DNA of 64,000 nucleotides, from assembly GCF_003610695.1 (NCBI RefSeq), contig NZ_RAQH01000003.1, positions 186,001-250,000 of the forward strand. The letters are read 5' to 3'. A program made the translations under genes and the position numbers. The notes beneath the pieces were generated by a model. That model was not told the DNA's origin. It ran no database searches and saw nothing but the letters and a program-made list of their open reading frames with translations. Shown here piece by piece: positions 34,671 to 64,000 of this stretch. This stretch comes from Epilithonimonas arachidiradicis (lineage in GTDB: Bacteria > Bacteroidota > Bacteroidia > Flavobacteriales > Weeksellaceae). Position 1 is the stretch's first letter. Each line of letters starts with the position of its first letter.

Positions 34671-35396
34671 ATGGGTTCAACTTTTATTCATACTTACGTC
34701 TCTGTAGATTGTGTTGTTTTTGGTTTCGATCACGAGAATCGTTTGAACATTTTATTAGTTCAAAGATTTCTGGATGCATTGCCTGCTGAGAAACAAAAAA
34801 AGCTGCCTGGTAGCTTAATATTGAGTGATGAAGATGTAGATGATGCGGCACAAAGAGTTTTGCACGAATTAACTGGAATTAAAAAAATGGTTCTGAAGCA
34901 GTTCAAATGCTTTGCAGATCCTTTACGGGCTAGCAATACGGACGATATCCAATGGATGGACAAAGAGTACAAGCACAATATTGACAGAATCATCACCGTA
35001 GCGTACTTATCACTTTGTAAAATAGATCATAAGATCAACAGTTCAAAATACGATACGGTTGACTGGTGTCCAATAGATAAAGTACCGTCATTGCCATTTG
35101 ATCACAATCAGATTATCGAAGAATCTTTTGTAGAAATCAAGAGATGGATAGAGTATGATTTCTCAATAATATTTGAGCTTTTACCAAAGAAATTTACAAT
35201 CAGACAATTATATCAGCTTTATAATGCTTTGAGCGAAAAGCAGATTGATATAAAAAACTTTCATAAAAAAATATCTTCATTCAATTACATTATTCCATTG
35301 AACGAAATTGAAAAAGGAGTTTCGCACCGTGCAGCCAGATATTATAAGTTTGATGCTAAAGTTTATAAAAAAAATAATAACAAATTAATTAAATAA
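34671..35396 (+). CDS. Nudix-type transcriptional regulator of pentose use (AraR/NrtR-like)
   Basis: A 241-residue protein. Residues about 8-150 form a Nudix-like fold (VSVDCVVFGFDHENRLNILL, then LPGSLILSDEDVDDAAQRVLHELTG). The Nudix box is degenerate: the G-x5-E-x7-REUxEE pattern is replaced by non-catalytic residues, so this is a ligand-sensing and not a hydrolytic module. The C-terminal part (about 165-235, FTIRQLYQLYNALSEKQID) is a winged-helix DNA-binding domain. Bacteroides AraR is a known member. Location directly before xylB and xylA suggests a xylose-responsive regulator; specificity is inferred. Confidence 0.82.
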   Translation: MGSTFIHTYVSVDCVVFGFDHENRLNILLVQRFLDALPAEKQKKLPGSLILSDEDVDDAAQRVLHELTGIKKMVLKQFKCFADPLRASNTDDIQWMDKEYKHNIDRIITVAYLSLCKIDHKINSSKYDTVDWCPIDKVPSLPFDHNQIIEESFVEIKRWIEYDFSIIFELLPKKFTIRQLYQLYNALSEKQIDIKNFHKKISSFNYIIPLNEIEKGVSHRAARYYKFDAKVYKKNNNKLIK

Positions 35397-35409
35397 GCCC
35401 TCAATAATA

Positions 35410-36894
35410 ATGTATTTGCTTGGATATGATATAGGTAGCTCGTCTGTGAAAGTTTGTCTGATGGAGGCTTCCAGCGGAAAAATTATTGCTTCCGATTTTT
35501 CACCAAAAAAGGAGATGAAGATTACAGCTATCCAGCCGGGATGGGCAGAACAAAATCCTTCTGACTGGTGGACAAATCTGAAATTGGCGCACGAAGCAGT
35601 AATGCACCACGCCGGTATTGATCCGGAAGATATCAAAGCCATCGGGATAACTTGGCAAATGCACGGATTGATATTGGTGGATAAAGATCAAAATCTTCTT
35701 CGTCCGTCGATCATTTGGTGTGATAGCAGAGCTGTACCTTATGGTGAGAAAGCATTCAAAGCTATTGGTGAAGAGAAGTGTTTGTCACATCTTCTCAATT
35801 CGCCGGGAAATTTTACAGCATCTAAGCTAGCCTGGGTAAAGGAGAATGAACCAGAGCTTTTTGATAAAATTGATAAAATCATGCTGCCTGGAGATTACAT
35901 TGTAATGAAACTTTCAGGCGAAATAGGAATTACTGTAGAAGGTCTGTCAGAAGGGATTTTCTGGGATTTTAAAAACAATTGCATCTCAGAAGATGTTATC
36001 AACTATTATGGTATTCCGAAAAGTTTTTTCCCGGATATTGTACCAACTTTCGGGATTCAGGCAACAGTTTCTGCAGCTGCAGCACAGGAACTGGGACTGA
36101 AAGAAGGGACACCAATATCATACAGAGCAGGTGACCAGCCAAATAATGCCTTGTCTCTGAATGTTTTTAATCCGGGAGAGATTGCTTCCACAGCAGGAAC
36201 TTCGGGAGTGGTTTATGGAGTTTTGGATAAGCTGGATTATGATAAATTTTCCAGAGTCAACACTTTTGCCCACGTGAACTATACCGAAGAATTGACAAGA
36301 TTAGGAGTCTTGCTATGCATCAATGGAACGGGAATTCTGAACTCTTGGCTAAAGCACAACTTTGCAACATCGCTCGCATCTTATGGTGATATGAATGATA
36401 TGGCATCGCTCTCACCGATTGGATCAAAAGGGCTGAGCATTATTCCTTTCGGAAATGGGGCAGAGAGGGTTTTGGAGAATAAGGACACAAGTTGCTGTAT
36501 CCACGGTATCAACTTTAACATCCATTCGAAAGGTGATATTTTGCGCGCAGCACAGGAAGGAATCGTATTTTCCTATGAGTATGGAATGGATATTATGAGG
36601 AATATCGGGATGGATATCAATGTAATCCGCGCAGGAAATGCCAATATGTTCCTAAGCTCGATTTTCCGCCAGTCATTGGCGAGTGTAAGCAATGCAACAA
36701 TTGAACTGTTTGATACAGACGGAGCAGTTGGTGCCGCAAGAGCCGCAGGAATGGGAATCGGTTTTTATGCAGATTCCAAAGAAGCATTTTCTTCGTTAGA
36801 AAAAATCACTGTTATAGAACCGGAACACGAGAAAAGAGAACAATATCTAGAAGCCTATGCAAGATGGAAGAATCATCTTAACAAAATAATTTAA
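35410..36894 (+). CDS. xylB: Xylulokinase
   Basis: A 494-residue FGGY sugar kinase. ATP-site residues DIGSSSVK (7-14) open the fold, WQMHG (about 83) is the substrate loop, and the catalytic Asp242 lies in YRAGDQPNNA. It phosphorylates D-xylulose to xylulose 5-phosphate for the pentose phosphate pathway. The xylA neighbour fixes the substrate among FGGY kinases. It starts 13 bases after the regulator stop. Confidence 0.93.
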   Translation: MYLLGYDIGSSSVKVCLMEASSGKIIASDFSPKKEMKITAIQPGWAEQNPSDWWTNLKLAHEAVMHHAGIDPEDIKAIGITWQMHGLILVDKDQNLLRPSIIWCDSRAVPYGEKAFKAIGEEKCLSHLLNSPGNFTASKLAWVKENEPELFDKIDKIMLPGDYIVMKLSGEIGITVEGLSEGIFWDFKNNCISEDVINYYGIPKSFFPDIVPTFGIQATVSAAAAQELGLKEGTPISYRAGDQPNNALSLNVFNPGEIASTAGTSGVVYGVLDKLDYDKFSRVNTFAHVNYTEELTRLGVLLCINGTGILNSWLKHNFATSLASYGDMNDMASLSPIGSKGLSIIPFGNGAERVLENKDTSCCIHGINFNIHSKGDILRAAQEGIVFSYEYGMDIMRNIGMDINVIRAGNANMFLSSIFRQSLASVSNATIELFDTDGAVGAARAAGMGIGFYADSKEAFSSLEKITVIEPEHEKREQYLEAYARWKNHLNKII

Positions 36895-37002
36895 TTCCCA
36901 CAAAAAGAAAACTTAGCAATTAACTTATTGATGTTAAAAATCAATGAGGAAGGGAGATTTTATGTCAAAATTGAGAATAATTAAAAAATAAATATAAAAA
37001 GA

Positions 37003-38331
37003 ATGAACACTTTAACAGGTACAAAAGAGTTTTTTACAGGTATCGACAAAATCCAATTTGAAGGAAAAGAAAGCAGAAATCCATTGGCATTCCGCTATTA
37101 TGATGCAGACAGAGTAGTGATGGGAAAACCTATGAAGGACTGGACACGTTTTGCAATGGCTTGGTGGCATACGCTATGTGCAAACGGTAGCGATCCATTC
37201 GGGGGACCAACGATCCATCATCCTTGGGATATGGGAACTGATGCTGTGAGCAGGGCAATGCACAAGATGGATGCAGGTTTCGAATTTATGCAGAAAATGG
37301 GTTTCAATTTTTATTGCTTCCACGACATTGATCTTGTAGATCCTGCTGATAATTGGAGAGATTATGAAAAAAATCTTCAGGTTGTTGTAGATTATGCCAA
37401 GCAAAAACAGCAGGAAACCGGAATCAAATTACTTTGGGGAACAGCCAACGTTTTCACTCACGAGAGATATATGAATGGAGCATCTACCAATCCAAACTTT
37501 GATGTGGTAGCTTGCGCAGGTACTCAGGTTAAGAATTCTATCGATGCAACCATTGCGCTTGGTGGAGAAAATTATGTTTTCTGGGGTGGAAGAGAAGGCT
37601 ATATGAGTCTTCTGAATACCGATATGAAACGTGAAAAAGACCATCTTGCACAATTCCTTACGATGTCCAGAGACTATGCAAGAAAGCAAGGATTTACAGG
37701 AACATTTTTGATTGAACCTAAACCAATGGAACCTACAAAACATCAGTATGACTATGATGCAGAAACGGTAATTGGATTCCTGAGACATTACGGTCTTGAT
37801 AAAGATTTCAAACTGAATCTTGAAGTCAATCACGCTACTTTGGCCGGACATACTTTTGAACACGAACTTCAGGCAGCTGTAGATGCAGGAATGTTGGGAA
37901 GTATTGATGCGAACAGGGGCGATTATCAGAATGGCTGGGATACAGATCAGTTTCCGGTGGACTACTATGAGATGATTCAGGCCTGGCTGGTACTTCTTCC
38001 GGCTGGTGGCTTAGGAACAGGAGGAGTCAACTTTGATGCGAAAATCCGTCGTAACTCTACAGATGCGGAAGACCTTTTCATCGCACATGTTTCGGGCATG
38101 GATGCTTTTGCAAAAGGATTATTGGTAGCTGCAGATATTCTTGAAAATTCTGATTACAACAAACTGAGAAACGAGAGATATTCATCATTTGACAATGGTA
38201 ATGGGAAAGCATTTGAAGAAGGCAAACTAACATTAGAAGACCTTCAGAAGATTGCTCACGAGTCAGGAGAACCAATGCCGAAAAGCGGTAAACAGGAACT
38301 TTTCGAAGCTATTGTGAATATGTATATCTAA
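37003..38331 (+). CDS. xylA: Xylose isomerase
   Basis: A 442-residue enzyme that converts D-xylose to D-xylulose with divalent metal. The catalytic His107 and Asp110 lie in FHDIDL, and the metal ligands include the Glu of FLIEPKP and the block [12 protein letters not shown]. Length matches class II isomerases. It follows xylB by 108 bases, in the expected order regulator-xylB-xylA. Confidence 0.97.
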
Positions 38332-38414
38332 AAAATGCATAAAGAGAGTTACGTCAATCTCAATAACGGGAACCGACAACTTTCTTATCAAAACTAACTT
38401 TAAAAATAATAATT

Positions 38415-41279
38415 ATGAATCTATTTCATTTAAGTAAAACCAATAGAGCCGCATTGTTTTTCGCAATGACTCTATTACCAACAGGTCTTGTCTATGCGCA
38501 GAGCAAACGGGACACTGTACAAAAGGAGAAGCAGATTGAGGAGGTTGTTGTTATTGGATATGGAACTCAGAAGAAAGAGGCAGTGACTGGGTCAGTTGCA
38601 TCTCTAAGTGGAAATGCTTTGAAAGAAGTACCATCAGCAAACGTCACTGATGCATTGCAAGGTCGAGTAGCTGGTTTAGATATTGGTAGAACTTCAACAA
38701 AGCCGGGTGCAGTGCAGCAGATAAGAATCAGAGGAGAACGTTCTCTCACAGGATCCAATGATCCGCTGATTGTTTTGGATGGTATTCCGTTTATAGGTAG
38801 TTTGGGCGATATTAGTCCATCAGATATAAAAAGTTTGGATGTTTTGAAGGATGCTTCAGCAACTGCAATTTATGGCTCAAGAGGTGCTAATGGTGTAATT
38901 ATAATCACTACAAATAGAGGAGGAAAAGGACAAAAAGCAAAATTTAGCTATAATGGATATACTGGATACCAGACAATATTTTCAAAATATCCGATGATGG
39001 ATGGGCCGAAGTTCGCAAAGTTGAGAGCGGATGCTAATCTTTTCACAAATGGTCCAGATGAAGCTAATGATGTTAATACAGATTGGCAAGACCTATATTA
39101 TGGCGTAGGACTTATGATGAATCACGATATAGGAGTTACAGGCGGTACAGAAAAAGGTGGTTATAATTTTGGAGTAGCATATTTCCAGCAAAATGGTGTT
39201 GTGCCTTTACAAAGTTATAAGAGACTTTCTATCCGTGGAGCTTTGGATCAAGAAGTCAATTCTTGGCTTAAAGTAGGTTTTTCAACTAATTCAAATTTTT
39301 CGATTAATGATTTTAATGGAGTTAGTGGAGCTCCAGTCTTAGGTTACTCGCCATTGGGAAAACCTTATCTCGAAGATGGTTCGCCAAGATTAAGAACAAC
39401 ATTTGCAAACTTAGATCAGACAGCTATCCAAACAAGAACAATATTACAAAGTCTGGGAGATGCTTACGCAGACCGTACAAATGCATTTAGTTCATATAAT
39501 AATCTATACAGTGAAATTAAATTTCCTGTTGATGGACTTAAGTATAGGCTAAATGTTGGTTTGACTTACAGAAATTCTAATAGTGGTTACTATTTAGGAA
39601 CTGGAGCATTAAACTTCCAACCTGCTACGCTATCTTCTGCTAGTATAGGTAATTCCTTAACTACACAGTGGGTTTTGGAAAATTTAATAACTTATGATAA
39701 GACATTTGGAAAACATAAAATCAATGCGGTAGCGCTTTATTCTGCTGAGCAGACGAGGTTCAATAGTTCTTCAATAGGAGCTCGAGACGTACCTATTGAT
39801 GCTTTTCAGTACTTCAATCTCGGTCAGGCGCAGGGTGAAATAACAATTAATCCTGCCAATCAAGGATATTGGAGAAGAGGTTTAATGTCATTGATGGGAA
39901 GAGCAATGTATCAGTATGATAACCGATATATGCTAACGGCAACAGTTCGGTCCGACGGCTCATCTGTTCTGGCCAAAGGCTATCAATGGCATACATATCC
40001 AGCAGTTTCCATAGGTTGGAATGTTGCAAACGAAAGCTTCCTTAGAGATTCCAGATATATTAATATGCTAAAATTGAGAGCTGGTTTCGGACAAACATCT
40101 AATCAGGCTGTAGATCCATATATGACCTTTGGGAGTCTAAGTACAACACCATATAATTTCGGGAGTAATTATGCTGTAGGAAATTTTGTAAACAGAGCAC
40201 CAAACTATTCTTTGGGTTGGGAATATTCAAAAACTTGGAATTATGGTTTAGACTTTTCAATACTTAACAAGCGTATTTCCGGAACTATAGAATATTATGT
40301 GACCAATACGGAAAAGTTATTATTAGATAAAGTATTACCTCAATCTAGTGGATTAGGTGTAGTCTTACAAAATGTTGGTGCTTCTCAAAACAAAGGTCTG
40401 GAAATATCCCTCAATGGTGTTATTATTGATAATCCAGAAGGCTTCAGTTGGGAAGTAGGCGGAAACTTGGCGGCCAACAGAAACAAGATTACTGCTTTAG
40501 CATCCGGTCAGGACAGAAATGTTGGAAATCTTTGGTTTGTTGGTTATAACATCAACGCCATTTATGATTATCAAAATATTGGTTTATGGCAGCAGGGCGA
40601 CCCTTATTTAAATATTCTTGAACCTCAATCAGGAGCAGCACCAGGTATGATAAAAGTTCTTTACACAGGGGCATACAATGCTGATGGGACGCCTACAAGA
40701 GCAATTAATGAATCTGATAGACAAATTATTAATACAAATCCTGATTTTGTAGGTGGCTTTAATACCCGTTTAGCTTATAAAAATTTAGATTTAAGTATCG
40801 TTGGAGCTTTTCAAAGTGGAGGAGTACTCGTAAGTACAATTTATGGATCAGCCGGATATCTTAATAGACTTACAGGACGTGCAAATAACGTAGACGTTGA
40901 CTATTGGACGGCAGAAAATCCAAATGTGAGATATCCAAAGCCTGGTGGATTGCTAAGTGGAGACAATCCTAAATATGCGTCGACATTAGCATTGTTTGAT
41001 GGCTCTTTTGTAAAAATAAGAACTATAACTTTGGGCTATAATTTTAATAAAACGATTTTAGATGATTTAGGAGTTAGCAATCTTAGATTATATGTTACGC
41101 TTCAGAATCCATTTGTTTTTGCATCACCGTATTATAGACATTCTGGAATGGATCCAGAACCAAATTCAAGAGGGGACGAAAATCAAGCTGTAAATTCCTA
41201 CAAGAGAAATCAGTTGGTTATCGGTACTAATAACCCATCTACTAGAAACTACCTTTTAGGTCTTAACTTAACCTTTTAA
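38415..41279 (+). CDS. SusC/RagA-type TonB-linked outer-membrane transporter
   Basis: A 954-residue receptor with signal peptide (about 1-28), a TonB-box-like EEVVVIGYGTQKKEAVTGSV (about 43-62), plug (to about 180) and barrel ending in GLNLTF. It is shorter at the N-terminus than usual SusC, with no carboxypeptidase-regulatory domain. With the SusD protein 12 bases downstream it imports oligosaccharides. The surrounding genes point to xylan-derived ones. Confidence 0.93.
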   Translation: MNLFHLSKTNRAALFFAMTLLPTGLVYAQSKRDTVQKEKQIEEVVVIGYGTQKKEAVTGSVASLSGNALKEVPSANVTDALQGRVAGLDIGRTSTKPGAVQQIRIRGERSLTGSNDPLIVLDGIPFIGSLGDISPSDIKSLDVLKDASATAIYGSRGANGVIIITTNRGGKGQKAKFSYNGYTGYQTIFSKYPMMDGPKFAKLRADANLFTNGPDEANDVNTDWQDLYYGVGLMMNHDIGVTGGTEKGGYNFGVAYFQQNGVVPLQSYKRLSIRGALDQEVNSWLKVGFSTNSNFSINDFNGVSGAPVLGYSPLGKPYLEDGSPRLRTTFANLDQTAIQTRTILQSLGDAYADRTNAFSSYNNLYSEIKFPVDGLKYRLNVGLTYRNSNSGYYLGTGALNFQPATLSSASIGNSLTTQWVLENLITYDKTFGKHKINAVALYSAEQTRFNSSSIGARDVPIDAFQYFNLGQAQGEITINPANQGYWRRGLMSLMGRAMYQYDNRYMLTATVRSDGSSVLAKGYQWHTYPAVSIGWNVANESFLRDSRYINMLKLRAGFGQTSNQAVDPYMTFGSLSTTPYNFGSNYAVGNFVNRAPNYSLGWEYSKTWNYGLDFSILNKRISGTIEYYVTNTEKLLLDKVLPQSSGLGVVLQNVGASQNKGLEISLNGVIIDNPEGFSWEVGGNLAANRNKITALASGQDRNVGNLWFVGYNINAIYDYQNIGLWQQGDPYLNILEPQSGAAPGMIKVLYTGAYNADGTPTRAINESDRQIINTNPDFVGGFNTRLAYKNLDLSIVGAFQSGGVLVSTIYGSAGYLNRLTGRANNVDVDYWTAENPNVRYPKPGGLLSGDNPKYASTLALFDGSFVKIRTITLGYNFNKTILDDLGVSNLRLYVTLQNPFVFASPYYRHSGMDPEPNSRGDENQAVNSYKRNQLVIGTNNPSTRNYLLGLNLTF

Positions 41280-41291
41280 AAGTCAGATATT

Positions 41292-43253
41292 ATGATTAAT
41301 TTAAATAAAAAAATTATTGCTGTTTTATTTTTGGCATCTTTAGTTTTTAATACTGCATGTAATGAGATACTAGACGAACAGCCTAGAGGTATTTATACTC
41401 CGGAAGATTTTACCACTGAAAGAGGTATATCACAAGGCGTTACATCTTTGTATAGACAATTAAGATTACTATATGGAAATGGTTATTGGCTAAATGCCAA
41501 TATGACAGGTACGGACGAGGCCACTTGGGGTCAAAGTGCTGATGGTAATTTTAAAGATTTGGATATGACAGGAGGAACGGGGAGTATAAACTCTAACACA
41601 TTCCCGACAAGTATGGTATGGGGTGCTGTTTTTCCATCAATCAACACCGCAAATGGGATTATTCAAAATGGCTCTGCAGCGGGTATTTCTGAATCTCTTA
41701 TTTCAGAAGCAAGATTCTTTAGATCATTTTATTATTTTCTTTTAGTTCAAACATATGGTGGAGTACCATTAGATCTTGGCTCAGGAGAATTGGCATTCAA
41801 TATTAACCCAAAAACGACATCAACCAGAAATACCGTTACCGAGGTTTATACAAAAGCTATTTTTCCAGATTTATTAACTGCGATTACAAATCTTCCTACG
41901 AATCCAAGAGTACAGGGAGGTATTACTAAAAATGTAGCTAGATTGACATTAGCAAAAGCTTATCTCACATATGGTTGGTGGCTTCAGAATCCAAATAATA
42001 TTCCAACTTATCCTGAAACACCAAGAACAGACCCGGATGGGCACAATCCACAATGGTATTTCCAGAAAGCTTATGATATTGCTTTGGAAGGTATTAATAA
42101 TCCTGGACCATACGCTTTACAACCTACTTATTATGATGTTAATTTAGGTTCGAAAGACCGTAATAATGAAACGATGTTATACGCTGATCATACAGAAACA
42201 AGTGCTTACTTTAATGAAGGGGTGATTCAGGCAAGTTATGGTGACGGATGGTCTCCAAATAATTTTGCCTCTTGGATGATGACTTGGAATTATACTAACC
42301 TTAAAAGTAGTACAAGTAATACCTCTTGGACAGCCGCAAGCTCTGTGCAAAGAGCAGCTTTTCAACCATTGGGAAGACCTTGGGTAAGGATGGCTCCTCC
42401 AATCGGAGTTATTAAAAATACTTTTGCAGATAAAATAAATGACTCAAGATACGATGGAACTTTCACCACAGTATATCGAGGAAATTGGAACAAAGAAGGT
42501 ACAGGATTAACAACTGTGGGTACATTATACAATGCCAATAACCTTCCTATAAAACCTAACGATCCCGTGCTTACATTTTTAAACGATGATTCGCAAATTC
42601 CAAGCTATACATCTGGTGCTGGGCAAAGTGGCGTAGGTGCTGGTAGCCTACCAGGAAGATCGGATTGGGTCATTTCACCTAATGGAATTAGCAGAATTGT
42701 TTATCCTGGCTTATGGAAAATAGGTCCCTATAGAACAGATAATGGGAATGGTTTGGGATACCCAAATCCTAGCCATACTAGACCTTTCTATGCACTTAAG
42801 TTTTCAGAATTCTATTTTGTTGCAGCAGAAGCTGCAGTAAAAGGTGCAAGCGGAAGTAGCTCTGCTCGGGATTTAATAAATGTAATACGTGCAAGAGCTG
42901 GAAAATGGCGCTGGGATAATAATGGTAACGTTGAGAAGATACAAGATAATAGTGCAGCGATGATTGCAGCTACACCTTCTACGATTACCATAGATTATAT
43001 CTTAGCAGAACGCTCCCGAGAGTACTATGGAGAAGGTTATAGATGGTATGATTTAGTAAGAACTCAGAAGTGGACAGAGTATTCGGCTACTTATTCAATA
43101 TGTGGAGATGCCTATGGCAATCATACACCACAAACCGTTATGCGTAATATTCAACCTTTCCATTATTTACGACCAATACCACAAGGACAACTAGATAATA
43201 TGGAAGTCTCGCCTGAAGAAAAAGCAAAATATCAGAATCCGGGATATAATTAA
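41292..43253 (+). CDS. SusD/RagB-type glycan-binding lipoprotein
   Basis: A 653-residue surface lipoprotein (lipobox Cys23, VFNTAC). Family features: EQPRGIYTPEDF near the N-terminus and, at the C-terminal RagB domain, YILAERSREYYGEGYRWYDLVRT. It closes the SusC barrel as a lid and binds oligosaccharide. Specificity cannot be read from sequence. A hairpin follows its stop. Confidence 0.93.
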   Translation: MINLNKKIIAVLFLASLVFNTACNEILDEQPRGIYTPEDFTTERGISQGVTSLYRQLRLLYGNGYWLNANMTGTDEATWGQSADGNFKDLDMTGGTGSINSNTFPTSMVWGAVFPSINTANGIIQNGSAAGISESLISEARFFRSFYYFLLVQTYGGVPLDLGSGELAFNINPKTTSTRNTVTEVYTKAIFPDLLTAITNLPTNPRVQGGITKNVARLTLAKAYLTYGWWLQNPNNIPTYPETPRTDPDGHNPQWYFQKAYDIALEGINNPGPYALQPTYYDVNLGSKDRNNETMLYADHTETSAYFNEGVIQASYGDGWSPNNFASWMMTWNYTNLKSSTSNTSWTAASSVQRAAFQPLGRPWVRMAPPIGVIKNTFADKINDSRYDGTFTTVYRGNWNKEGTGLTTVGTLYNANNLPIKPNDPVLTFLNDDSQIPSYTSGAGQSGVGAGSLPGRSDWVISPNGISRIVYPGLWKIGPYRTDNGNGLGYPNPSHTRPFYALKFSEFYFVAAEAAVKGASGSSSARDLINVIRARAGKWRWDNNGNVEKIQDNSAAMIAATPSTITIDYILAERSREYYGEGYRWYDLVRTQKWTEYSATYSICGDAYGNHTPQTVMRNIQPFHYLRPIPQGQLDNMEVSPEEKAKYQNPGYN

Positions 43254-43284
43254 TTATAATTTTCACATTCATATCAATCATAAG

Positions 43285-43317
43285 CAAAGTAGGTGTTATG
43301 CTGCACCTGCTTTGTTT
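43285..43317 (+). terminator. Hairpin downstream of the SusD gene
   Basis: Arms CAAAGTAGGTG and CACCTGCTTTG (one G-T pair) with an 8-base loop, followed by TTT. It could partially terminate the transcript after the SusC/SusD pair or protect its 3' end. It is the only such structure between the pair and the catabolic genes. Confidence 0.6.
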
Positions 43318-43340
43318 AATGAAATAAATTTACAAGTATT

Positions 43341-44519
43341 ATGGAAAAAACATGGCGTTGGTTTGGGAAGAACGATAAAATTACATTACAAACACTTCGA
43401 CAGATTGGTGTGGAAGGTATTGTTTCTGCGCTGCACGATATTCCTAACGGAGAAATCTGGAGCTTAGAGGCTATTAACGATTACAAAAATTATATAGAAA
43501 GTCACGGTCTTCGCTGGTCTGTTGTGGAGAGTCTTCCGGTAAGCGAAGCAATCAAATACGGAGGTGCAGACCGTGATTTTTTGATAGAAAATTATATCAA
43601 AAGTCTCGAAAACTTAGGAAAAGCAGGCGTAACTACCGTTTGTTACAACTTTATGCCGGTTTTAGATTGGGCAAGAACAGATCTTTTCCACGAATGGGAA
43701 GACGGTTCGTCGTCATTGTATTTTGATAAAGCAAGATTTGCCTATTTTGAAATTCATATTCTGAAAAGAGAAGGTGCAGAAAATGATTATACTCCTGAGA
43801 TTCTACAAAAAGTTGAAGAATTAAAAAATACACTCACAGAGAAAGATAACAATGATTTGATAGATTCAGTTATTGTAAAAACACAGGGATTCGTTAATGG
43901 GAATATTAAAGAAGGCGATTTGAATCCGGTAGAAAAGTTCAATAATTTATTGGCTTTGTATGACGGAATTGATAAAAATCAACTTCGTGAAAATTTAAAA
44001 TATTTCCTCGAAAAAATAATGCCGGTTTGCGAAGAATGGAACATTCAAATGTGTGTGCATCCAGATGACCCGCCGTTTGCTTTGCTCGGTTTACCCAGAA
44101 TCGTAACCAATGAAGAAGATATCGATTGGTTCCTGAATGCAGTGGATAATCCCCACAATGGATTGACTTTCTGCGCAGGTTCTTTGAGTGCCAATCTTCA
44201 GAATGACGTTCCGAAGCTGGCTCAGAAATTTGCCCACAGAACAAAGTTTGTTCATTTAAGAAGCACCAATGTTTTTGAAAACGGAGACTTCATTGAAGCC
44301 CATCATTTAGTGGGAAGAGGAAAATTAATCGAAGTGATCCGCGTATTCGAAAAAGAAAATCCGGATTTGCCAATGAGGATCGACCACGGAAGATTATTAT
44401 CGGAAGATATTGATAAAGGTTATAATCCAGGCTATTCTTTCTTAGGAAGAATGTTGGCTTTAGGACAGATTGAAGGGGTAATGGCAACAGTACAAAACGA
44501 AATGTCCAAAAAACTTTAA
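43341..44519 (+). CDS. uxuA: D-mannonate dehydratase
   Basis: A 392-residue enzyme matching UxuA in length and features: MEKTWRWFGKNDKITLQTLRQ at the start (TIM barrel), CVHPDDPPFALLGLPRIV in the middle and FVHLRSTN, then RIDHGRLLSED near the end. It dehydrates D-mannonate to 2-keto-3-deoxygluconate. It is the first of the glucuronate genes here. Confidence 0.92.
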   Translation: MEKTWRWFGKNDKITLQTLRQIGVEGIVSALHDIPNGEIWSLEAINDYKNYIESHGLRWSVVESLPVSEAIKYGGADRDFLIENYIKSLENLGKAGVTTVCYNFMPVLDWARTDLFHEWEDGSSSLYFDKARFAYFEIHILKREGAENDYTPEILQKVEELKNTLTEKDNNDLIDSVIVKTQGFVNGNIKEGDLNPVEKFNNLLALYDGIDKNQLRENLKYFLEKIMPVCEEWNIQMCVHPDDPPFALLGLPRIVTNEEDIDWFLNAVDNPHNGLTFCAGSLSANLQNDVPKLAQKFAHRTKFVHLRSTNVFENGDFIEAHHLVGRGKLIEVIRVFEKENPDLPMRIDHGRLLSEDIDKGYNPGYSFLGRMLALGQIEGVMATVQNEMSKKL

Positions 44520-44520
44520 A

Positions 44521-45489: not shown

Positions 45490-45530
45490 CAAGGCCTTAA
45501 TGATTTTCTCATAATTAAGGTCTTGTTTTT
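45490..45530 (+). terminator. Terminator between the SDR and uxaC genes
   Basis: Arms CAAGGCCTTAAT and ATTAAGGTCTTG (one G-T pair) with a 12-base loop, followed by TTTTT. It implies that uxaC may start a new transcript. Confidence 0.75.
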
Positions 45531-52410: not shown

Positions 52411-52612
52411 GAACGGGCTTTAGCCCGTTTAACAAATGAATCAAACAATTGGCTTTAGCCAAAATTTAAATGTGAATCAAAGTCCCGAGGGGACGATTTA
52501 AACGAGAATAGGATGAAATCCTATAAAATGAACCCGGAGGGTTTAATAACAATAGCCACAGGTGAAACCTGTGGGACAATGTGAAAATAAACCACGAACC
52601 CTGAAAGGGTTC
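52411..52612. repeat. Array of seven short palindromes between GH95 and GH43 genes
   Basis: Seven palindromes in about 200 bases: AACGGGCTTTAGCCCGTT (52412-52429), TTGGCTTTAGCCAA (52449-52462), GTCCCGAGGGGAC (52482-52494), ATAGGATGAAATCCTAT (52508-52524), AACCCGGAGGGTTT (52531-52544), CCACAGGT-GAA-ACCTGTGG (52556-52574) and GAACCCTGAAAGGGTTC (52596-52612). Arms differ but the loops are short and purine- or GAA-rich. It looks like a composite REP block. Confidence 0.85.
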
Positions 52613-52639
52613 AACAAAAAATTAAATAAAAAATTATAT

Positions 52640-54582: not shown

Positions 54583-54625
54583 TTTTAAGATTACTTAAAA
54601 TCAACCAAACCAAAATATCAAAACC

Positions 54626-56242
54626 GTGAAAATTAATAAATCATTTTATATAGTTTCTTTTTTGGGATTTATCGGGCTGAATCACCTTTCAGCCCAGGTA
54701 AATCACTCTGAAAAGGCGACAACCCGATTTACCAACCCAATCATTTGGGCAGATGCCCCGGATTTATCAATCACCAGAAACGGCGACGATTTTTACCTGA
54801 TAAGCACTACAATGCATCTTATGCCAGGCGCTCCGGTAATGCATTCCAAAGATTTGGTCCATTGGGAAATGTCGAGCTATGTTTTTGATACACTAAATGA
54901 TAATTCAAAATACGATTTGATTGACGGAAGCGTTTACGGGCGCGGACAATGGGCATCGTCCATCCGTTATCACAAAGGAAAATATTACGTTCTGTTCTCT
55001 CCGAATGACGAGCCTTTCAAATCCTATTTTTATGTTACCGACAATCCTGAAAAAGGCAATTGGAAGCTTATCACGAGAACCAGGCATTTTCACGACGCGT
55101 CTTTACTTTTTGATGATGATGACAGAGTTTACGTTTTTACTTCCAACAAAGTTTTTGAGCTGAGCCCGGATTTTAAAACCATTATCGGGAATCAGGACGG
55201 AACGGAAGTTTTTCAAAAAGATGCTTCGGAAACCGGACTTTTGGAAGGTAACCAAATCATTAAAAAAGACGGAAAATATTATATGATGATGATTTCCTGG
55301 CCAAGAGGAGGAAAACGTCGTCAGGAAGTCTACAGAGCTGATAAAGTAACTGGACCTTATGAGAAAAAAGTTATTCTTGAAGACAATTTTCTTGGATTTT
55401 CATACGCCGGACAAGGTGCTTTAATCGATGATAAAAATGGTAATTGGTATTCGCTGATTTTCCAGGATAGAAATGGTGTAGGCCGTGTCCCGATTTTGCT
55501 TCCGGTAAAATGGGAAAACGACTGGCCGGTTTTGGGCGACAACGGAAAAGTGCCTGTGACAGGTGAAGTCCCGCTTTCGCCATTTAAACCAAAAAATCAT
55601 CTGGTGGAAAGCGACGAATTCTCCGACAAAAAAATGAAAATCCAGTGGCAATGGAATCATAATCCTGTCAACACAGCTTGGTCTTTATCCGACAGAAAAG
55701 GCTTTTTAAGGTTAAAAACCAATAGAGTCGTTGCTAATCTGTACCTCGCTCCGAATACGTTGACCCAAAGAATGGAAGGCCCGAAATCCAGTGGTATTGT
55801 TGCTCTGGATGTCAAAGAGATGAAAGACGGTGATGTTACAGGATTTAGCGCATTCAATGGCGATTCCGGGATTCTGTCTGTGGTAATGGAAAATGGTAAA
55901 AAGTTTATTATCTTTTCAACGAATGAAGTCAGTTTAGATAATAAAACTAAGGCGGTTACAGGTGTTAAAAAAGAAGAAAAAAAGAGAATCCCATTAAACT
56001 CGGACAAAGTTTATTTTAAAATTGATGCCGATTTCAACCTTGGAAAAGATTTGGCCGATTTTTATTACAGCACCGACCAAAAGAACTGGACCGAAATGGC
56101 GAAAGATTACAAAATGATTTTCGATTACCGGAGATTTTTTATGGGTTCCAAGTTTGCGATTTTCAATTATGCAACGAAAAATCTGGGAGGTTTTGTAGAT
56201 GTTGATTTTTTTAGATATACAAATTCTTCAACCATAAAATAA
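54626..56242 (+). CDS. GH43 glycosidase, second copy (GH43_12-like)
   Basis: A 538-residue exported enzyme with GTG start, signal peptide (about 1-24), GH43 propeller and a C-terminal concanavalin-like domain. The motif APDLSITRNGDDFYLISTTM carries the base Asp; HDASLLFDDDDRVYVF the second acidic residue; and LEGNQIIKKDGKYYMM the acid Glu. The STTMHLMPGAPVMHSKDL pattern matches GH43 subfamily 12-type beta-xylosidases/arabinofuranosidases. Only about 28% of residues look shared with the first GH43 (eye estimate). Confidence 0.85.
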   Translation: MKINKSFYIVSFLGFIGLNHLSAQVNHSEKATTRFTNPIIWADAPDLSITRNGDDFYLISTTMHLMPGAPVMHSKDLVHWEMSSYVFDTLNDNSKYDLIDGSVYGRGQWASSIRYHKGKYYVLFSPNDEPFKSYFYVTDNPEKGNWKLITRTRHFHDASLLFDDDDRVYVFTSNKVFELSPDFKTIIGNQDGTEVFQKDASETGLLEGNQIIKKDGKYYMMMISWPRGGKRRQEVYRADKVTGPYEKKVILEDNFLGFSYAGQGALIDDKNGNWYSLIFQDRNGVGRVPILLPVKWENDWPVLGDNGKVPVTGEVPLSPFKPKNHLVESDEFSDKKMKIQWQWNHNPVNTAWSLSDRKGFLRLKTNRVVANLYLAPNTLTQRMEGPKSSGIVALDVKEMKDGDVTGFSAFNGDSGILSVVMENGKKFIIFSTNEVSLDNKTKAVTGVKKEEKKRIPLNSDKVYFKIDADFNLGKDLADFYYSTDQKNWTEMAKDYKMIFDYRRFFMGSKFAIFNYATKNLGGFVDVDFFRYTNSSTIK

Positions 56243-56262
56243 ATTCTTTAATGAATATTTAA

Positions 56263-58251
<1,989 letters not shown>

Positions 58252-58614: not shown

Positions 58615-61059
58615 ATGAATTTCAAAAGAATAAAAATCAAAACACTTATTATCACGGTCGTTATTGTATCGGGAAATATCACGGCGCAATCTTATCTGAA
58701 GACAGATTCAGGATTGAAGTTTTCTAATGATAATATGAATGTTGAAGTAAAATTGTATGGAGAAAATACGATTAGAATTATTAAATATCCCGTCGGAAAA
58801 TCATTTGTCAAAAATAGTTTATCGGTCATTAGACAGGAACAGAAAACCAGATTTTCAGTTTCAGAAAACAATCATATTATTTCATTAAAAACAAATGATT
58901 TAAATATTTTCATTGATGCTAAAAATGGTAAAATCACTTACAATTCATCCTCAGGAAAAGAACTTTTAAAGGAAATAGGAAGCGATTTCAAACCTTTTAA
59001 TGATGCCGGAAACCCGACTTATTCAGTGACACAGTCTTTTCAGCTGGAAAAAGAAGAACCCATCTATGGTTTAGGAATTTTACAAAACGGTAAAATGTCA
59101 CAGCGAAATACGGATGTGAAAATGATTCAGAATAACACCTGGGATTTTGTACCGTTTTTTCAGTCTGTAAAAGGTTATGGCGTTTTTTGGGATAACTATT
59201 CTCCGACGCAATTTACTGATAAGCCCGACAAAACAACATTCTCATCGGAAGTTGGGGAGGGTGTTGATTATTATTTTATCTACGGAAAAAATGCGGATGG
59301 TGTAGTTGCCGGAATGCGAAATCTTACGGGAAAAGTGCCGATGATACCTTTATGGACTTACGGTTTTTGGCAGAGCAAAGAACGCTATAAAAGTCAGGAT
59401 GAACTTTTGGAGGTTGTTAAAAAATACCGTGATTTGAAAGTTCCTTTAGACGGAATTATCCAGGATTGGCAATATTGGGGCAACAATTATCAGTGGAATG
59501 CGATGGATTTCATCAGCCCTGATTTTCCCGATGCCAAAAAAATGATACAGGACATTCACGATATGAATGCGCATCTTTCCGTTTCCATTTGGTCGTCTTT
59601 TGGACCGATGACCAATCAGTACCGTGAAATGGATAAAAAAGGAATGCTGTTTAATTTCGCAACCTGGCCGGAATCTGGCCTTGAAGTTTGGCCTCCCGAT
59701 ATGAATTATCCTTCCGGAGTCCGTGTTTACGATGCCTTCAATCCCGAAGCCAGAAATATTTACTGGAAATATCTCAACAGAGGCGTTTTCAGTCTTGGTG
59801 TAGATTCTTGGTGGATGGATTCTACGGAACCGGATCATCTCAGCCAAAAACCGGAAGATTTGGACACCCAAACGTACCTCGGCTCATTCCGGAAAGTGAG
59901 AAATGCGTATCCGCTGATGACAGTTGGTGGCGTTTACGACCATCAGCGTGACACTACGAGTGATAAAAGGGTTTTTATTTTGACGCGTTCGGCTTTTGCA
60001 GGACAGCAAAGATACGCAGCTAATACGTGGTCGGGAGATGTCAACTCTTCGTGGGAATCTTTGCGCAATCAGGTTCCGGCAGGTTTAAATTTCAGCCTCA
60101 CAGGAAATCCGAATTTCAACTCTGATATCGGCGGTTTCTTTGCTGGTGTTTATAAAAGAAACGGAGGCGCCAACAATTCGATGTTTCAGGAATTGTATGT
60201 TCGCTGGTTGCAATACGGCACTTTCACGCCAATGATGCGTTCCCACGGAACCGATATTCCGAGGGAAATTTATCAGTTTGGACAAAAAGGAGATGTGGTT
60301 TATGATATTATCGAGAAATTCATCAGGTTGCGTTACAATATGTTGCCGTATATTTATTCGACTTCGTGGGATGTTTCTAAAAATAATTCAAGTTTTTTGA
60401 GGGCACTTTCGATGGATTTTTCATCAGACCAAAAAACCTGGGATATTAACAATGAATATCTTTTTGGTAAATCATTCTTAGTAGTACCAATTCTCAATCC
60501 TCAATACACACCTGAAAAATTCATTAAAACCGATGAAAATGAAGGCTGGAATAAAACCGATGCTACCAAAAAAGAAAATTCGCTTTCCAATATAGATTTT
60601 ACACAAAATAAAACAGTTAAAGTTTACCTTCCCGCAGGTGCAGACTGGTTTGATTTCTGGACGGATGAAAAACACAAAGGCGGTCAGGAAATTGAAAAAT
60701 CCGTTAACCTTCAAAGCATTCCGTTGTATGTGAAAGCGGGAAGTATCATTCCGTTTGGTCCTTATGTACAATACGCAACCGAGAAAAAATGGGATAATCT
60801 TACCATAAAAATTTATCCGGGAGCAGATTCAGACTTTGTTTTATACGAAGATGAATTTGATAATTACAATTACGAAAAAGGAAATTATACCGAAATCCCT
60901 TTTCATTGGAATGATAAATCAAAGACCTTAACGATAGATTCCCGAAAAGGAAATTTTAAAGGAATGATTGATAAACGAAACTTTGTAGTAATTCTTCCTG
61001 ATGGACAGCAGCAATCGTTGAGTTATTCAGGAAAGAAAGTGAATGTCAATTTTAAATAA
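58615..61059 (+). CDS. GH31 alpha-xylosidase-like enzyme
   Basis: An 814-residue exported protein with a signal peptide (about 1-25) and GH31 domain order: N-terminal beta-sandwich, (beta/alpha)8 barrel and C-terminal domains. The nucleophile Asp402 lies in WWMDSTEPD and the acid/base Asp475 in WSGDVNSSWE. Alpha-xylosidases and alpha-glucosidases share this fold. The PUL setting (xylan) argues for alpha-xylosidase. It ends 16 bases before the next GH43 start. Confidence 0.87.
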   Translation: MNFKRIKIKTLIITVVIVSGNITAQSYLKTDSGLKFSNDNMNVEVKLYGENTIRIIKYPVGKSFVKNSLSVIRQEQKTRFSVSENNHIISLKTNDLNIFIDAKNGKITYNSSSGKELLKEIGSDFKPFNDAGNPTYSVTQSFQLEKEEPIYGLGILQNGKMSQRNTDVKMIQNNTWDFVPFFQSVKGYGVFWDNYSPTQFTDKPDKTTFSSEVGEGVDYYFIYGKNADGVVAGMRNLTGKVPMIPLWTYGFWQSKERYKSQDELLEVVKKYRDLKVPLDGIIQDWQYWGNNYQWNAMDFISPDFPDAKKMIQDIHDMNAHLSVSIWSSFGPMTNQYREMDKKGMLFNFATWPESGLEVWPPDMNYPSGVRVYDAFNPEARNIYWKYLNRGVFSLGVDSWWMDSTEPDHLSQKPEDLDTQTYLGSFRKVRNAYPLMTVGGVYDHQRDTTSDKRVFILTRSAFAGQQRYAANTWSGDVNSSWESLRNQVPAGLNFSLTGNPNFNSDIGGFFAGVYKRNGGANNSMFQELYVRWLQYGTFTPMMRSHGTDIPREIYQFGQKGDVVYDIIEKFIRLRYNMLPYIYSTSWDVSKNNSSFLRALSMDFSSDQKTWDINNEYLFGKSFLVVPILNPQYTPEKFIKTDENEGWNKTDATKKENSLSNIDFTQNKTVKVYLPAGADWFDFWTDEKHKGGQEIEKSVNLQSIPLYVKAGSIIPFGPYVQYATEKKWDNLTIKIYPGADSDFVLYEDEFDNYNYEKGNYTEIPFHWNDKSKTLTIDSRKGNFKGMIDKRNFVVILPDGQQQSLSYSGKKVNVNFK

Positions 61060-61075
61060 TCTTAAAATATTAATT

Positions 61076-62443
61076 ATGAAATTTTTAAGTTTAATAACGG
61101 TTTTAGGATTTTTTCAGATTTCCTTCGCTCAAAATCCGATTATCCAAACCAAGTACACTGCAGACCCTGCACCAATGGTTTATAAGGATACGGTTTATCT
61201 TTACACAAGCCACGATGAAGACGATGCCTTCGGATTCAAAATGAAAGACTGGTTACTATACACGTCCACCGATATGGTCAATTGGACAGACCACGGTGTA
61301 GTGGCTTCGCTCAAGGATTTTAAATGGGTAAATACCGACAACGGTGCCTGGGCGCCACAGGTTGTTGAAAGAAAAGGAAAATTCTATATGTATTGTCCAA
61401 TGCCTAACAATATGGGTATTGGGGTATTGGTGGCGGACAGTCCGTATGGTCCTTTCACCGATCCTATCGGCAAGCCTTTGATCAAAAATTCTCTGGATGA
61501 CATCGATCCCACAGTTTTAATTGATGACGACGGGCAGGCTTATCTGTACTGGGGAAATCCGAATCTTTGGTATGCTAAACTCAACGAAGATATGATATCT
61601 CTTGCCGGACCAATTACCAAAGACCCTTCGTTTGCGAAGGTTAAAGACCAGCCAGATCCTTTCAAATATCAGGAGGGACCTTGGGCGTGGAAAAGAAACG
61701 GAATTTACTATATGGCTTACGCTTCTAAATGTTGTCCGGAAGGGATTGGTTATGCAATGGCAAAATCGCCTACAGGTCCCTGGAATTATGGAGGCGTGAT
61801 AATGGATGGCGACCAGAGATCCAGCGGAAATCATCCCGGTATCATAGATTTCAAAGGTAAATCTTATGTTTTCGGATTCAACCATATGCTAAGGATGCAG
61901 ACGATGAGCAAACATTACGAACGCCGGTCTGTTAGTGTCACAGAAATTACCTACAATGCAGATGGAACCATTCAGAAGCTTCCTTTCTGGACTACGGATG
62001 GTGCAAAAAGAGTAGGTACTCTGGACCCTTATAAAAAAGTGGAAGCAGAAACGATGGCTTACAGCGAAGGTCTGAAAACAGAAATGGTAACAGAATGGGA
62101 ACGCAATCAACCCTATAACAGAGGTAAAAAAATCACAGACCGTGTCATTGTTACCTCTATTAACAATGGTGATTATATTAAAATCCAGGGGGTAGATTTT
62201 TCCAAAGGCGTAAAATCTTTGGATGTGAATGTCGCTTCTCTCTATGGCGGAAAAATAGAAGTGCGTTCAGATGCTCTTAATGGGCCATTGCTGGGAGTTG
62301 TTAACGTTACAGGAAAAGGTGAGGGCGACTTATATAAAACCATTAATACACCTCTGAAAAGTACAAAGGGAATCCACGATTTATATTTTGTTTTTAAGGG
62401 AGAAAAAGACCTTTTCTATTTTGATTGGTGGAAATTTAATTAA
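61076..62443 (+). CDS. GH43-CBM6 arabinofuranosidase-type enzyme
   Basis: A 455-residue exported enzyme. I chose ATG at 61076 (MKFLSLITVLGFF) because it gives a signal peptide; an ATG at 61043 would overlap the GH31 gene. The GH43 propeller carries the base Asp in YTADPAPMVYKD, the modulator Asp in DIDPTVLIDDDG and the acid Glu in QEGPWAWKRNG. A CBM6 domain follows (about 330-455, KKVEAETMAYSEG to FYFDWWKF). Such pairs act on arabinoxylan side chains. Only 16 bases separate it from GH31. Confidence 0.87.
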   Translation: MKFLSLITVLGFFQISFAQNPIIQTKYTADPAPMVYKDTVYLYTSHDEDDAFGFKMKDWLLYTSTDMVNWTDHGVVASLKDFKWVNTDNGAWAPQVVERKGKFYMYCPMPNNMGIGVLVADSPYGPFTDPIGKPLIKNSLDDIDPTVLIDDDGQAYLYWGNPNLWYAKLNEDMISLAGPITKDPSFAKVKDQPDPFKYQEGPWAWKRNGIYYMAYASKCCPEGIGYAMAKSPTGPWNYGGVIMDGDQRSSGNHPGIIDFKGKSYVFGFNHMLRMQTMSKHYERRSVSVTEITYNADGTIQKLPFWTTDGAKRVGTLDPYKKVEAETMAYSEGLKTEMVTEWERNQPYNRGKKITDRVIVTSINNGDYIKIQGVDFSKGVKSLDVNVASLYGGKIEVRSDALNGPLLGVVNVTGKGEGDLYKTINTPLKSTKGIHDLYFVFKGEKDLFYFDWWKFN

Positions 62444-62459
62444 ATCCAAATTTTTAATA

Positions 62460-64000
62460 ATGTTGAAGACGAAAATACTTTTAATTGCTGTAACATTTTT
62501 GCTGTCGGGAAATATTTCCAAGGCGCAGTCAACCGTTTGGTTAGACCAGTTGGATTTAAGCGTAGCAACACAGGGACACGGAAAACCCGGCATCAATACT
62601 TCGGTGGACGGAAAACCTTTGACGATTGCCGGCGATGTTTTCAAAAGAGGTTTCGGAACGCACGCTGAAAGTTCTTTGTTGATTAAATTAAACGGCAAAG
62701 CAAAAAGCTTTTCCGCAATGGTAGGAATGGATGATGAAATCAAAGGTCAAAATCCCGCTGCCGAATTTGAAATTTATGGCGACAATAAAAAGCTTTGGTC
62801 AAGCGGAATAATGAAATTAGGCGACAAAGCAAAACCTGTTTCCGTTTCGCTGGAAGGTGTAAAACAATTAGAATTAGTCGTAACAGATGGCGGAAACGGA
62901 CCGTATTATGACCACGCCGATTGGGCAGATGCCAAATTTGAAACAGCAGACGGTGCAAAACTGATAACATTTAATCCGATTTCATCAGTACCTTATATTC
63001 TGACACCAAAACCTGCGGCAACTCCAAAAATTAATTCAGCAGGCGTTTATGGCGTTCGTCCCGGCTCACCTTTTTTGTTCAGGGTTGCAGCAACAGGTGA
63101 AAGGCCAATGACTTTTACGGCAAAAAATCTTCCGAAAGGTTTAACAATAGATTCACAAACCGGAATCATCACCGGAAAAATAGATACGAAAGGAACCTAT
63201 GAAGTCCTTTTATCAGCTAAAAATGCTAAAGGCTCAGTTTCAAAAAAATTAAAAATCGAAAGCGGCGATAAAATAGCTTTGACACCAACAATGGGATGGA
63301 ACAGCTGGAACTGTTTCGGACACGAAGTTTCTGCCGATAAAGTAAAACGAGCTGCCGATGCTTTGGTTAAAACAGGATTGGTAAACCACGGCTGGAATTA
63401 TATCAACATCGATGATTCGTGGCAATTTAACAGAGACGGAAAAGACCCGTCTTTCAAAGGGAAAATGCGTGATGAAAATGGTTATATTCTGACCAATTCC
63501 AAATTTCCGGATATGAAGGAATTAACCGATTACTTTCATTCAAAAGGTTTGAAAGCAGGAATCTATTCTTCTCCCGGACCCTGGACCTGTGGTGGTTGTG
63601 CAGGAAGCTACGGTTACGAAAAGCAGGATGCCGAAAGCTACGCCAAATGGGGAATCGATTATCTGAAATACGACTGGTGCAGCTACGGAGGCGTGATTGA
63701 CGGTTTGCCTGATAACGACCCGAATAAAGTTTCTTCACTCAATTTTCAGGGTGGAGGAGATTTGGATAAAGGCGTGAAACCATTTAAACTGATGGGCGAT
63801 TTATTAAAAAATCAGCCTCGTGATATTGTGTATAATCTTTGTCAATACGGAATGGGCGATGTCTGGAAATGGGGAAATGATGCCGATGCGCAATCCTGGC
63901 GAACAACCAATGACATCACCGATACCTGGGCAAGTGTTAAAAATATTGCTTTGGCTCAGGATAAAGCCGCTCCTTATGCAAAACCCGGCAACTGGAATGA
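62460..64000 (+). CDS. NPCBM-Ig-GH27 glycosidase, truncated by the window edge
   Basis: The frame is open from ATG at 62460 to the end, so the C-terminus is missing. Signal peptide (about 1-23); NPCBM domain (about 25-165, KRGFGTHAESSLLIKL); an Ig-like domain (about 180-270, ATGERPMTFTAKNLPKGLTI); then the GH27 barrel from LTPTMGWNSWNCFG (about 280). The nucleophile is Asp405 in YLKYDWC, and the INIDDSW motif is intact. GH27 includes alpha-galactosidases and beta-L-arabinopyranosidases; which one is unresolved. Confidence 0.88.
   Translation, partial: MLKTKILLIAVTFLLSGNISKAQSTVWLDQLDLSVATQGHGKPGINTSVDGKPLTIAGDVFKRGFGTHAESSLLIKLNGKAKSFSAMVGMDDEIKGQNPAAEFEIYGDNKKLWSSGIMKLGDKAKPVSVSLEGVKQLELVVTDGGNGPYYDHADWADAKFETADGAKLITFNPISSVPYILTPKPAATPKINSAGVYGVRPGSPFLFRVAATGERPMTFTAKNLPKGLTIDSQTGIITGKIDTKGTYEVLLSAKNAKGSVSKKLKIESGDKIALTPTMGWNSWNCFGHEVSADKVKRAADALVKTGLVNHGWNYINIDDSWQFNRDGKDPSFKGKMRDENGYILTNSKFPDMKELTDYFHSKGLKAGIYSSPGPWTCGGCAGSYGYEKQDAESYAKWGIDYLKYDWCSYGGVIDGLPDNDPNKVSSLNFQGGGDLDKGVKPFKLMGDLLKNQPRDIVYNLCQYGMGDVWKWGNDADAQSWRTTNDITDTWASVKNIALAQDKAAPYAKPGNWN

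Follow-up and report, generated by a model that had tools for sequence, protein, structure and literature searches.

Bacteroides ovatus divides xylan use between two polysaccharide utilization loci (PULs), one for simple and one for complex xylans, each with a hybrid two-component system (HTCS) (PMC4491172). According to the accessible text of that report, the large locus (PUL-XylL) carries glycoside hydrolase (GH) families GH31, GH95, GH97, GH43, GH30 and GH115, the small locus (PUL-XylS) carries GH10, GH67 and GH43, and high synteny with PUL-XylL was not found in the other genomes examined. Here we describe a xylan locus of Epilithonimonas arachidiradicis that begins in a 64,000-nucleotide stretch of contig NZ_RAQH01000003.1 (C3:186001-250000, hereafter the window; coordinates prefixed C3 are contig positions, all others window positions) and that was followed by extending the reading to C3:306999. 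The locus occupies C3:220671-296064 of a 3.65 Mb genome in 15 contigs. It is approximately 75 kb long and has 45 genes, of which 44 share one strand and araR lies on the other; the in-window part (34671-64000) is its first 29 kb, and about 46 kb more lie past position 64000.

We read this region, with a probability of roughly 0.8, as a single locus for the complete use of acetylated, feruloylated, sugar-decorated glucuronoarabinoxylan of the corn-bran kind. An earlier note, made from the window, had proposed a PUL for decorated glucuronoarabinoxylan, and each of the one-strand gene families it named for 34671-64000 was confirmed on the + strand by Pfam or NCBIfam (Table 1). It would have given the proposal up had xylanase or alpha-glucuronidase genes been missing nearby, and suggested looking past 64 kb for GH10, GH8, GH115 and GH67. 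GH115, GH10 and GH67 were found there, on the same contig and strand, and lend the proposal support; the GH8 profile had no match in this genome, with a search control that was positive in 3 genomes. The locus has a susC/susD pair and linked carbohydrate-active enzymes for one glycan in an order kept in relatives, and holds GH10, GH67 and a GH43 beta-xylosidase together. If the reading is true, the digestion of complex xylan, established in gut Bacteroides, would extend to a genus whose bacteria live in soil, in water and with plants. The most useful additions, both described below, are the series of modular loci among relatives and the pattern of AraR/XylR operators.

Comparison with B. ovatus was made by gene-family content, not by sequence or gene order. 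The likeness to its large xylan locus, drawn in the earlier note for GH95, GH31 and GH43, agrees with the accessible text of PMC4491172: like PUL-XylL, the present locus has GH95, GH31, GH97, GH43 (some with the carbohydrate-binding module CBM6), GH3, GH30 and GH115 around SusC/D, and its GH95 is closest to the 4UFC structure from PUL-XylL. Unlike PUL-XylL as described there, it has no GH98, GH5 or HTCS, has one SusC/D pair and not two, and has export of GH30 of the type IX secretion system (T9SS) kind and built-in sugar catabolic genes. With PUL-XylS it shares GH10, GH67, a GH43 without evident signal peptide and an MFS-type transporter; unlike PUL-XylS, it fuses these with XylL-like enzymes in one locus, again without HTCS. 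If PUL-XylL is defined by GH98/GH5_21, HTCS and order, the locus falls outside it. It comprises the enzyme families of both B. ovatus loci except GH98, and is predicted to work like PUL-XylL and PUL-XylS combined.

Among flavobacteria, SusC/D xylan loci similar to the present one are Flavobacterium johnsoniae PUL20 (GH43, GH115 and the carbohydrate esterases (CE) CE1 and CE6; PMC5863359) and the Gramella flava xylan PULs (GH10, GH43, GH67, xylA and xylB; PMC5306329). For neither does the accessible text mention GH95 or a uronate route; for G. flava it lists uxaC, uxuB and kdgK in a pectin PUL and a LacI-type regulator. The CE1-CBM48-CE1 layout of DmCE1B, from the xylan locus PUL 17 of Dysgonomonas mossii (PMC8040265, accessible text), recurs in the double CE1 described here, the match to 7b5v lying in the C-terminal unit; the remainder of PUL 17 differs and includes an HTCS. 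Expression of GH10, GH30, GH43, GH51 and GH67 on sugarcane bagasse has been tied to Chryseobacterium and Paenibacillus (PMC5834485, accessible text). Searches of the open-access literature brought up no account of such a locus for either Chryseobacterium or Cloacibacterium.

Enzyme content and target polysaccharide

For the enzymes of the locus we infer substrate specificities and localisation as follows. The xylan chain would be cut by GH30, secreted through the T9SS, and by GH10, a lipoprotein of surface type, and SusC/SusD would import the fragments. Ester groups would be removed by the double CE1 and the two SASA esterases; GH95, GH31, GH27/GH97, the GH43s, GH51 and GH127 would take off galactose, xylose and arabinose side groups, and GH115 and GH67 would take off glucuronate, leaving GH3 and GH43 to reduce the chain to xylose. 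Inner-membrane MFS, SSF and GPH carriers would take up the sugars, which xylAB, araBDA, uxaC-uxuB-uxuA-kdgK-kdgA, galK/galT and transaldolase/transketolase would feed to central metabolism. NrtR-family repressors XylR and AraR would keep the main promoter closed as long as the cell contains no xylose and arabinose.

Pfam scans covered the 45 locus proteins (GH27 by its in-window part only), and NCBIfam was also used. The weakest best match among the in-window families was that of SusD (3.5e-19), too low for chance to matter. Export was judged by eye from N-termini rather than with a signal-peptide predictor, and the GTG/TTG starts at 52562, 54626 and 62388 were assigned mechanically, so the real starts may lie downstream. 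GH95 matched 4ufc (853 bits), 7kmq (691) and 2rdy (613) and keeps, by alignment, the catalytic residues Glu501, Asn372 and Asn374 of 4UFC and its Thr370; its L-galactose specificity is presumed from similarity to 4UFC and from context. The double CE1 matched 7b5v (350 bits) at residues 289-641 and 1jjf (236 bits) at 18-273. The GH43 at 61043 matched 8hcj (390 bits) and 4nov (289), and that at 54626 matched 6mly (433 bits) and HiAXHd3 (238), the enzyme to which BACOVA_03417 is likened in the accessible text of PMC4491172. GH30 matched 9rdg (195 bits) and other XynC-type chains (glucuronoxylanases); its NCBIfam XynC score was 202 bits against a cut-off of 650, and an Arg and a Tyr align with XynC, which we take to be the residues of its GlcA pocket. 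GH97 matched 5xfm (798 bits, labelled alpha-glucosidase) and the alpha-galactosidase 3a24 (128); 5xfm is presumably a beta-L-arabinopyranosidase/alpha-galactosidase.

Xyloglucan would be another possible target, its side chains being stripped by GH31, GH95 and GH43. GH31 and GH95 co-occur in characterised xyloglucan loci (PMC8245568, accessible text). The nearest solved relatives of GH31 are alpha-xylosidases (7kmp, 530 bits; 5jou, 508; 2xvg, 500), and the GH43 at 52562, best matched by 7erl (869 bits) and 7jvh (714), has 5jow BoGH43A among its more distant matches. BoGH31A and Xyl31A, which are among those relatives of GH31, we take to be xyloglucan enzymes. Xyloglucan-type GH31 enzymes carry a PA14 domain, and the GH31 of this locus shows none. 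GH10, GH30, GH115 and GH67 are xylan enzymes, and neither GH5, GH74 and GH16 nor pectinase families were found among the 45 locus proteins, the single GH5 of the genome lying on another contig (C9). On the absence of these families from the locus proteins, a xyloglucan or pectin target was rejected, and we regard a xyloglucan locus as highly improbable.

Elsewhere in the genome, SusD profiles gave 11 matches, 9 of them above cut-off, with one in the xylan locus. Of seven full-length GH43 matches, six lie in the locus and the seventh on C7; three weak partial matches are on C1 and C5. The GH10 of the locus is the sole GH10 in the genome.

Core, intermediate and full loci in relatives

Searches covered 59 genomes, 23 of them of the same genus (own genome included in both counts). 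GH67 was present in 17, GH115 in 16, GH95 in 16 (11 with the full domain) and UxaC in 22 of the 59; within the genus, GH95 was present in 9/23. The order UxaC-GH95-GH115-GH67 occurs on one contig in seven of the 23 (own genome, G000; G008, G009, G015, G016, G020 and G022), and the full layout is thus not unusual within the genus. The earlier note had held that such a set, with an inline glucuronate pathway, would be notable in a flavobacterium. The nearest named relatives are Chryseobacterium sp. SSA4.19, with the same gene order across its 22 kb, and Cloacibacterium rupense.

Stretches from 11 relatives were compared by mapping the own locus proteins. Almost the whole gene order is common to the six full relatives; G008 is without GH30, one SASA esterase, and the exonuclease and DUF294 genes. 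The latter two genes are kept in 5/6 full relatives and missing in G008, G007 and G031. G007 is intermediate, with the uronate and arabinose genes and GH30 and without the GH95-GH97 block, GH3, GH51 and GH127. G012, G014 and G018 hold a 27-29 kb glucuronoxylan core (xylR, xylB, xylA, susCD, uxuA, uxuB, GH43, GH115, galM, SASA, GPH, GH10, GH43 and GH67, with tal in two of the three) from which the debranching genes are missing. In the Cloacibacterium G031, the debranching block stands right after susD, without uronate genes there and partly rearranged. Set against the full loci, the three cores make the locus look like a core with added modules, and these close relatives offer a natural core/intermediate/full series for testing each debranching module and operator. 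At the left edge, four proteins left of xylR were unmatched in the relatives' stretches, which reach approximately 0.6-8 kb in that direction; the right-edge test, which used rtcB/WYL, is weaker, as some stretches stop near galT.

The same three cores would also fit a simpler glucuronoxylan/arabinoxylan locus, to which the enzymes for galactose, xylose and ester groups would be mere neighbours with other polymers as substrates. Several findings weigh against our reading, the first two of them favouring this simpler locus. GH98, the B. ovatus endo-enzyme that cuts uncut corn xylan, was absent among the 45 locus proteins, and a genome search was also empty, its control being silent everywhere. 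In a wider survey, which took the best 80 of 585 GH95 loci in named genomes with at most 10 kb of flank, Bacteroidota GH95 genes stood mostly in other surroundings, with relatives of the GH43 at 54626 near 28, of the esterase near 13, of GH67 near 5, of GH115 near 3 and of UxaC near 3; since GH67 and GH115 relatives are so few, GH95 alone does not mean xylan. G010 and G017 have GH95 and GH115 without a locus-type UxaC; the partnership with uronate genes is therefore not fixed, and the idea of a locus UxaC wherever GH95 occurs was dropped. Thr370 was likewise dropped as proof of an L-galactosidase, since the fucosidase 7kmq has Thr too and the residue is non-diagnostic according to the accessible text of PMC8245568. 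Against a simpler target, the debranching genes lie inside the xylan locus on one strand, and their order is shared by seven genomes and Cloacibacterium. GH95 is missing genome-wide in G007, G012, G014 and G018, and there the other debranching genes are also absent from the stretches compared. We consider mere neighbourhood improbable and prefer a single locus for decorated glucuronoarabinoxylan.

SusC, SusD and kdgA are the least conserved locus proteins, most others being at 85-97%. Median identity between the own genome and the six full relatives is 66% for SusC and 73% for SusD, against 80% and 81% among the relatives themselves, and SusC divergence peaks near residues 200-350; this may mean that the importer has diversified or been exchanged while the rest of the locus was conserved. 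uxaC/kdgK and kdgA form two allele groups that do not co-vary (uxaC/kdgK/kdgA 96/98/66 in G022 and 79/75/86 in G016), a mosaic that suggests recombination inside the locus. Between GH27 and the next GH43+CBM6, G008, G009, G015, G020 and G031 have an extra GH97-like (30-32%) and/or GH31-like gene (39-41%) that the own genome is without, and G016 has an additional GH115-like gene (47%) before GH43+CBM6.

Regulators and promoter motifs

HTCS domains were not found in the 45 locus proteins, to which that search was confined. XylR has AraR 5bs6 as its best solved relative (115 bits), and AraR is closely related to BtAraR (233 bits), whose gel-shift-tested sites have the form AAGTGT-N7-ACACTT (PMC4666351, accessible text). 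BtAraR-type operators lie upstream of the ara genes here. Sites with <=1 mismatch within 350 bp upstream were scanned in up to 12 genomes per gene and were found at xylR in 9/12, araB in 9/9, araR in 9/9, GH3 in 7/8, tal in 7/11, GH30 in 3/8, GH51 in 2/8 and GH127 in 1/8, with 0 for the other 37/45 genes. In the main 400-bp region, 0/400 shuffles gave a site at <=1 mismatch; across all 400-bp upstream regions, 0 to 0.5% did. The site at the xylR promoter follows the locus araR, being present in 9/9 genomes with araR and 0/3 without. The best matches in those three have 3-4 mismatches, and their stretches, as read, contain no orthologous araR; that of G012 has a 34% homologue. araA is absent from the genomes of G012 and G014, and G018 has one approximately 180 kb away.

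The same promoter carries a perfect 20-bp palindrome, TTATGATAAGCTTATCATAA, which is probably the XylR operator. Its 18-bp core (<=4 mismatches) lies upstream of xylR in 11/12 genomes (not G031) and of GH30 in 7/8, and exact half-sites lie upstream of GH127 in 8/8. Six half-sites were observed against 0.13 expected in 9,294 intergenic bases (two gaps outside the locus included). Its 16-bp core has one exact copy genome-wide and six more with two mismatches. Footprinting of 13 upstream regions gave strong conservation at xylR (12 genomes) and araB (9 genomes), and TATATTTG occurs in every aligned upstream sequence of both; the -7 promoter consensus is TAnnTTTG. Spaced-dyad counts and a TTG-N-TAnnTTTG scan of intergenic stretches gave nothing useful.

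The locus has no HTCS, and one promoter holds both the AraR-type operator and the palindrome. We infer joint arabinose/xylose gating, and the assignment of each regulator to its motif is a prediction from the DNA, which suggests induction by xylose and arabinose and not by a sensor protein of the gut-bacterial kind. The regulators resemble BtAraR and BtXylR in fold, operator type and clustering with ara and xyl genes (PMC4666351, PMC3878776, accessible text). Unlike in B. thetaiotaomicron, where AraR belongs to a SusC/D operon that also contains an HTCS, both regulators here appear to act on one promoter driving an HTCS-less SusC/D xylan locus. Tentatively, and at slightly less than even odds, the AraR operator would have been gained when an arabinose cassette with araR joined an older xylose-controlled core, joint gating arising as debranching modules were added.

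To the points already raised against the reading, three are added by the promoter: the 9-versus-3 operator split may reflect a single evolutionary event, the genomes being related and the nine not independent; the AraR site lies approximately 290-320 bp from xylR, distant from the promoter core; and degenerate sites also occur inside genes. The enzymes and substrate could be as proposed and the motifs not be regulator sites, control lying with an unlinked sensor or carbon catabolite control. Motif binding by AraR/XylR is a prediction, a second conserved block (TTACGTAA...GTTAAC) lies upstream of xylR, and a Crp-like site lies upstream of Bacteroides ara and xyl operons (PMC3878776, accessible text). 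Against such control, each of the nine araR-bearing genomes has AraR sites at araB, araR and xylR together, and most locus genes have none; we judge it less likely and favour gating by XylR and AraR. The second block (34649-34664, just before xylR) is almost invariant in 12/12, Cloacibacterium included.

Two further sets of AraR-like matches were seen. Those upstream of uxuA (7 genomes, 2 mismatches) were discounted as arms of a conserved hairpin. A weaker site at 56301-56319 (2 mismatches), 16-18 bp before the double-CE1 start in 8/8 genomes, was kept as weak.

Locus features

Table 1. Features of the xylan locus, in order along the contig; "same" denotes the strand of the in-window genes.
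Feature	Coordinates	Strand	Basis or remark
Candidate AraR operator AAGTATGAAAATTACACTT, main promoter region	34365-34383	+	1 mismatch to AAGTGT-N7-ACACTT; matching place in 9/12 genomes
Further half-sites CTTATCATA	34419-34427 and 34555-34563		
Candidate XylR operator, perfect palindrome	34522-34541	.	same promoter as AraR site
Promoter -7-like element TATATTTG	34636-34643	+	identical in 12/12 aligned regions upstream of xylR
XylR-type NrtR-family regulator (Nudix + winged helix)	34671-35396	+	NrtR_WHD 9.8e-21, NUDIX 3.2e-8
xylB, xylulokinase	35410-36894	+	XylB 6.4e-91, under that model's cut-off
xylA, xylose isomerase	37003-38331	+	TIGR02630, 681 bits, above cut-off
SusC-type outer-membrane transporter	38415-41279	+	TIGR04056, 689 bits, above cut-off
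SusD-type glycan-binding lipoprotein	41292-43253	+	SusD_RagB; lipobox by eye
Terminator-like hairpin, susD/uxuA gap	43284-43314	+	conserved, 11 genomes aligned; 56-nt stretch -24.6 kcal/mol, z -6.0
uxuA, mannonate dehydratase	43341-44519	+	Pfam/NCBIfam
uxuB-type D-mannonate oxidoreductase, SDR family	44644-45459	+	NF006132, 379 bits, cut-off 281
Terminator-like hairpin, uxuB/uxaC gap	45490-45525	+	8 genomes aligned; 71-nt stretch -19.1 kcal/mol, z -4.6
uxaC, glucuronate isomerase	45572-46990	+	Pfam; second, divergent copy in own genome
kdgK, PfkB-family kinase, presumed KDG kinase	46993-48000	+	Pfam; role by context
kdgA, KDPG/KHG aldolase	47997-48635	+	Pfam
MFS transporter, presumed hexuronate/glycoside uptake	48635-49933	+	Pfam/NCBIfam; role by context
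GH95, presumed alpha-L-galactosidase	49938-52403	+	Pfam; 4ufc
GH43 with GH43_C2	52562-54358	+	nearest GH43_12 structure 7jvh and 7erl
GH43 with GH43_C2, presumed O3 arabinofuranosidase on doubly substituted xylose	54626-56242	+	related to 6mly, HiAXHd3
Double CE1 esterase, DmCE1B-like	56326-58251	+	N-terminal CE1 18-273, C-terminal CE1 unit 289-641
GH31, presumed alpha-xylosidase	58615-61059	+	Pfam; PA14 domain not found
GH43 + CBM6	61043-62443	+	Pfam
NPCBM + Melibiase_2 (GH27-type), presumed alpha-galactosidase	62388-64000, on to C3:250484	+	Pfam; cut by window end
GH43 + CBM6	C3:250396-251898	same	Pfam
GH43 + CBM6	C3:252024-253391	same	Pfam
GH97	C3:253394-255334	same	Pfam
SASA esterase with GH2_N	C3:255365-257254	same	Pfam
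GH115	C3:257415-259949	same	Pfam
GH30 with T9SS tail	C3:260622-263345	same	Pfam/NCBIfam
GH3	C3:263592-266219	same	Pfam
GH51-type	C3:266327-268306	same	Pfam
araB-type FGGY kinase, araD-type aldolase, araA, aldose epimerase, SSF symporter	after GH51	same	Pfam
Exonuclease-domain gene and cNMP-binding/CBS/DUF294 gene	C3:276023-278622		between SSF symporter and araR
araR, second NrtR-type regulator	C3:278625-279311	reverse	Nudix-like domain + winged helix
GH127-type	C3:279833-282223	same	Pfam
Second SASA esterase, then GPH symporter	between GH127 and GH10	same	Pfam
GH10	C3:286104-287225	same	Pfam
GH43 without evident signal peptide	C3:287412-288386	same	Pfam
GH67	C3:288574-290604	same	Pfam
Transaldolase, split transketolase, galK, galT	after GH67	same	Pfam

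Outside the locus, another uronate cluster stands at C7:165001-195000; its UxaC is at 53% to that of the locus, and it also includes kdgA, MFS and SusC homologues and a GH43.

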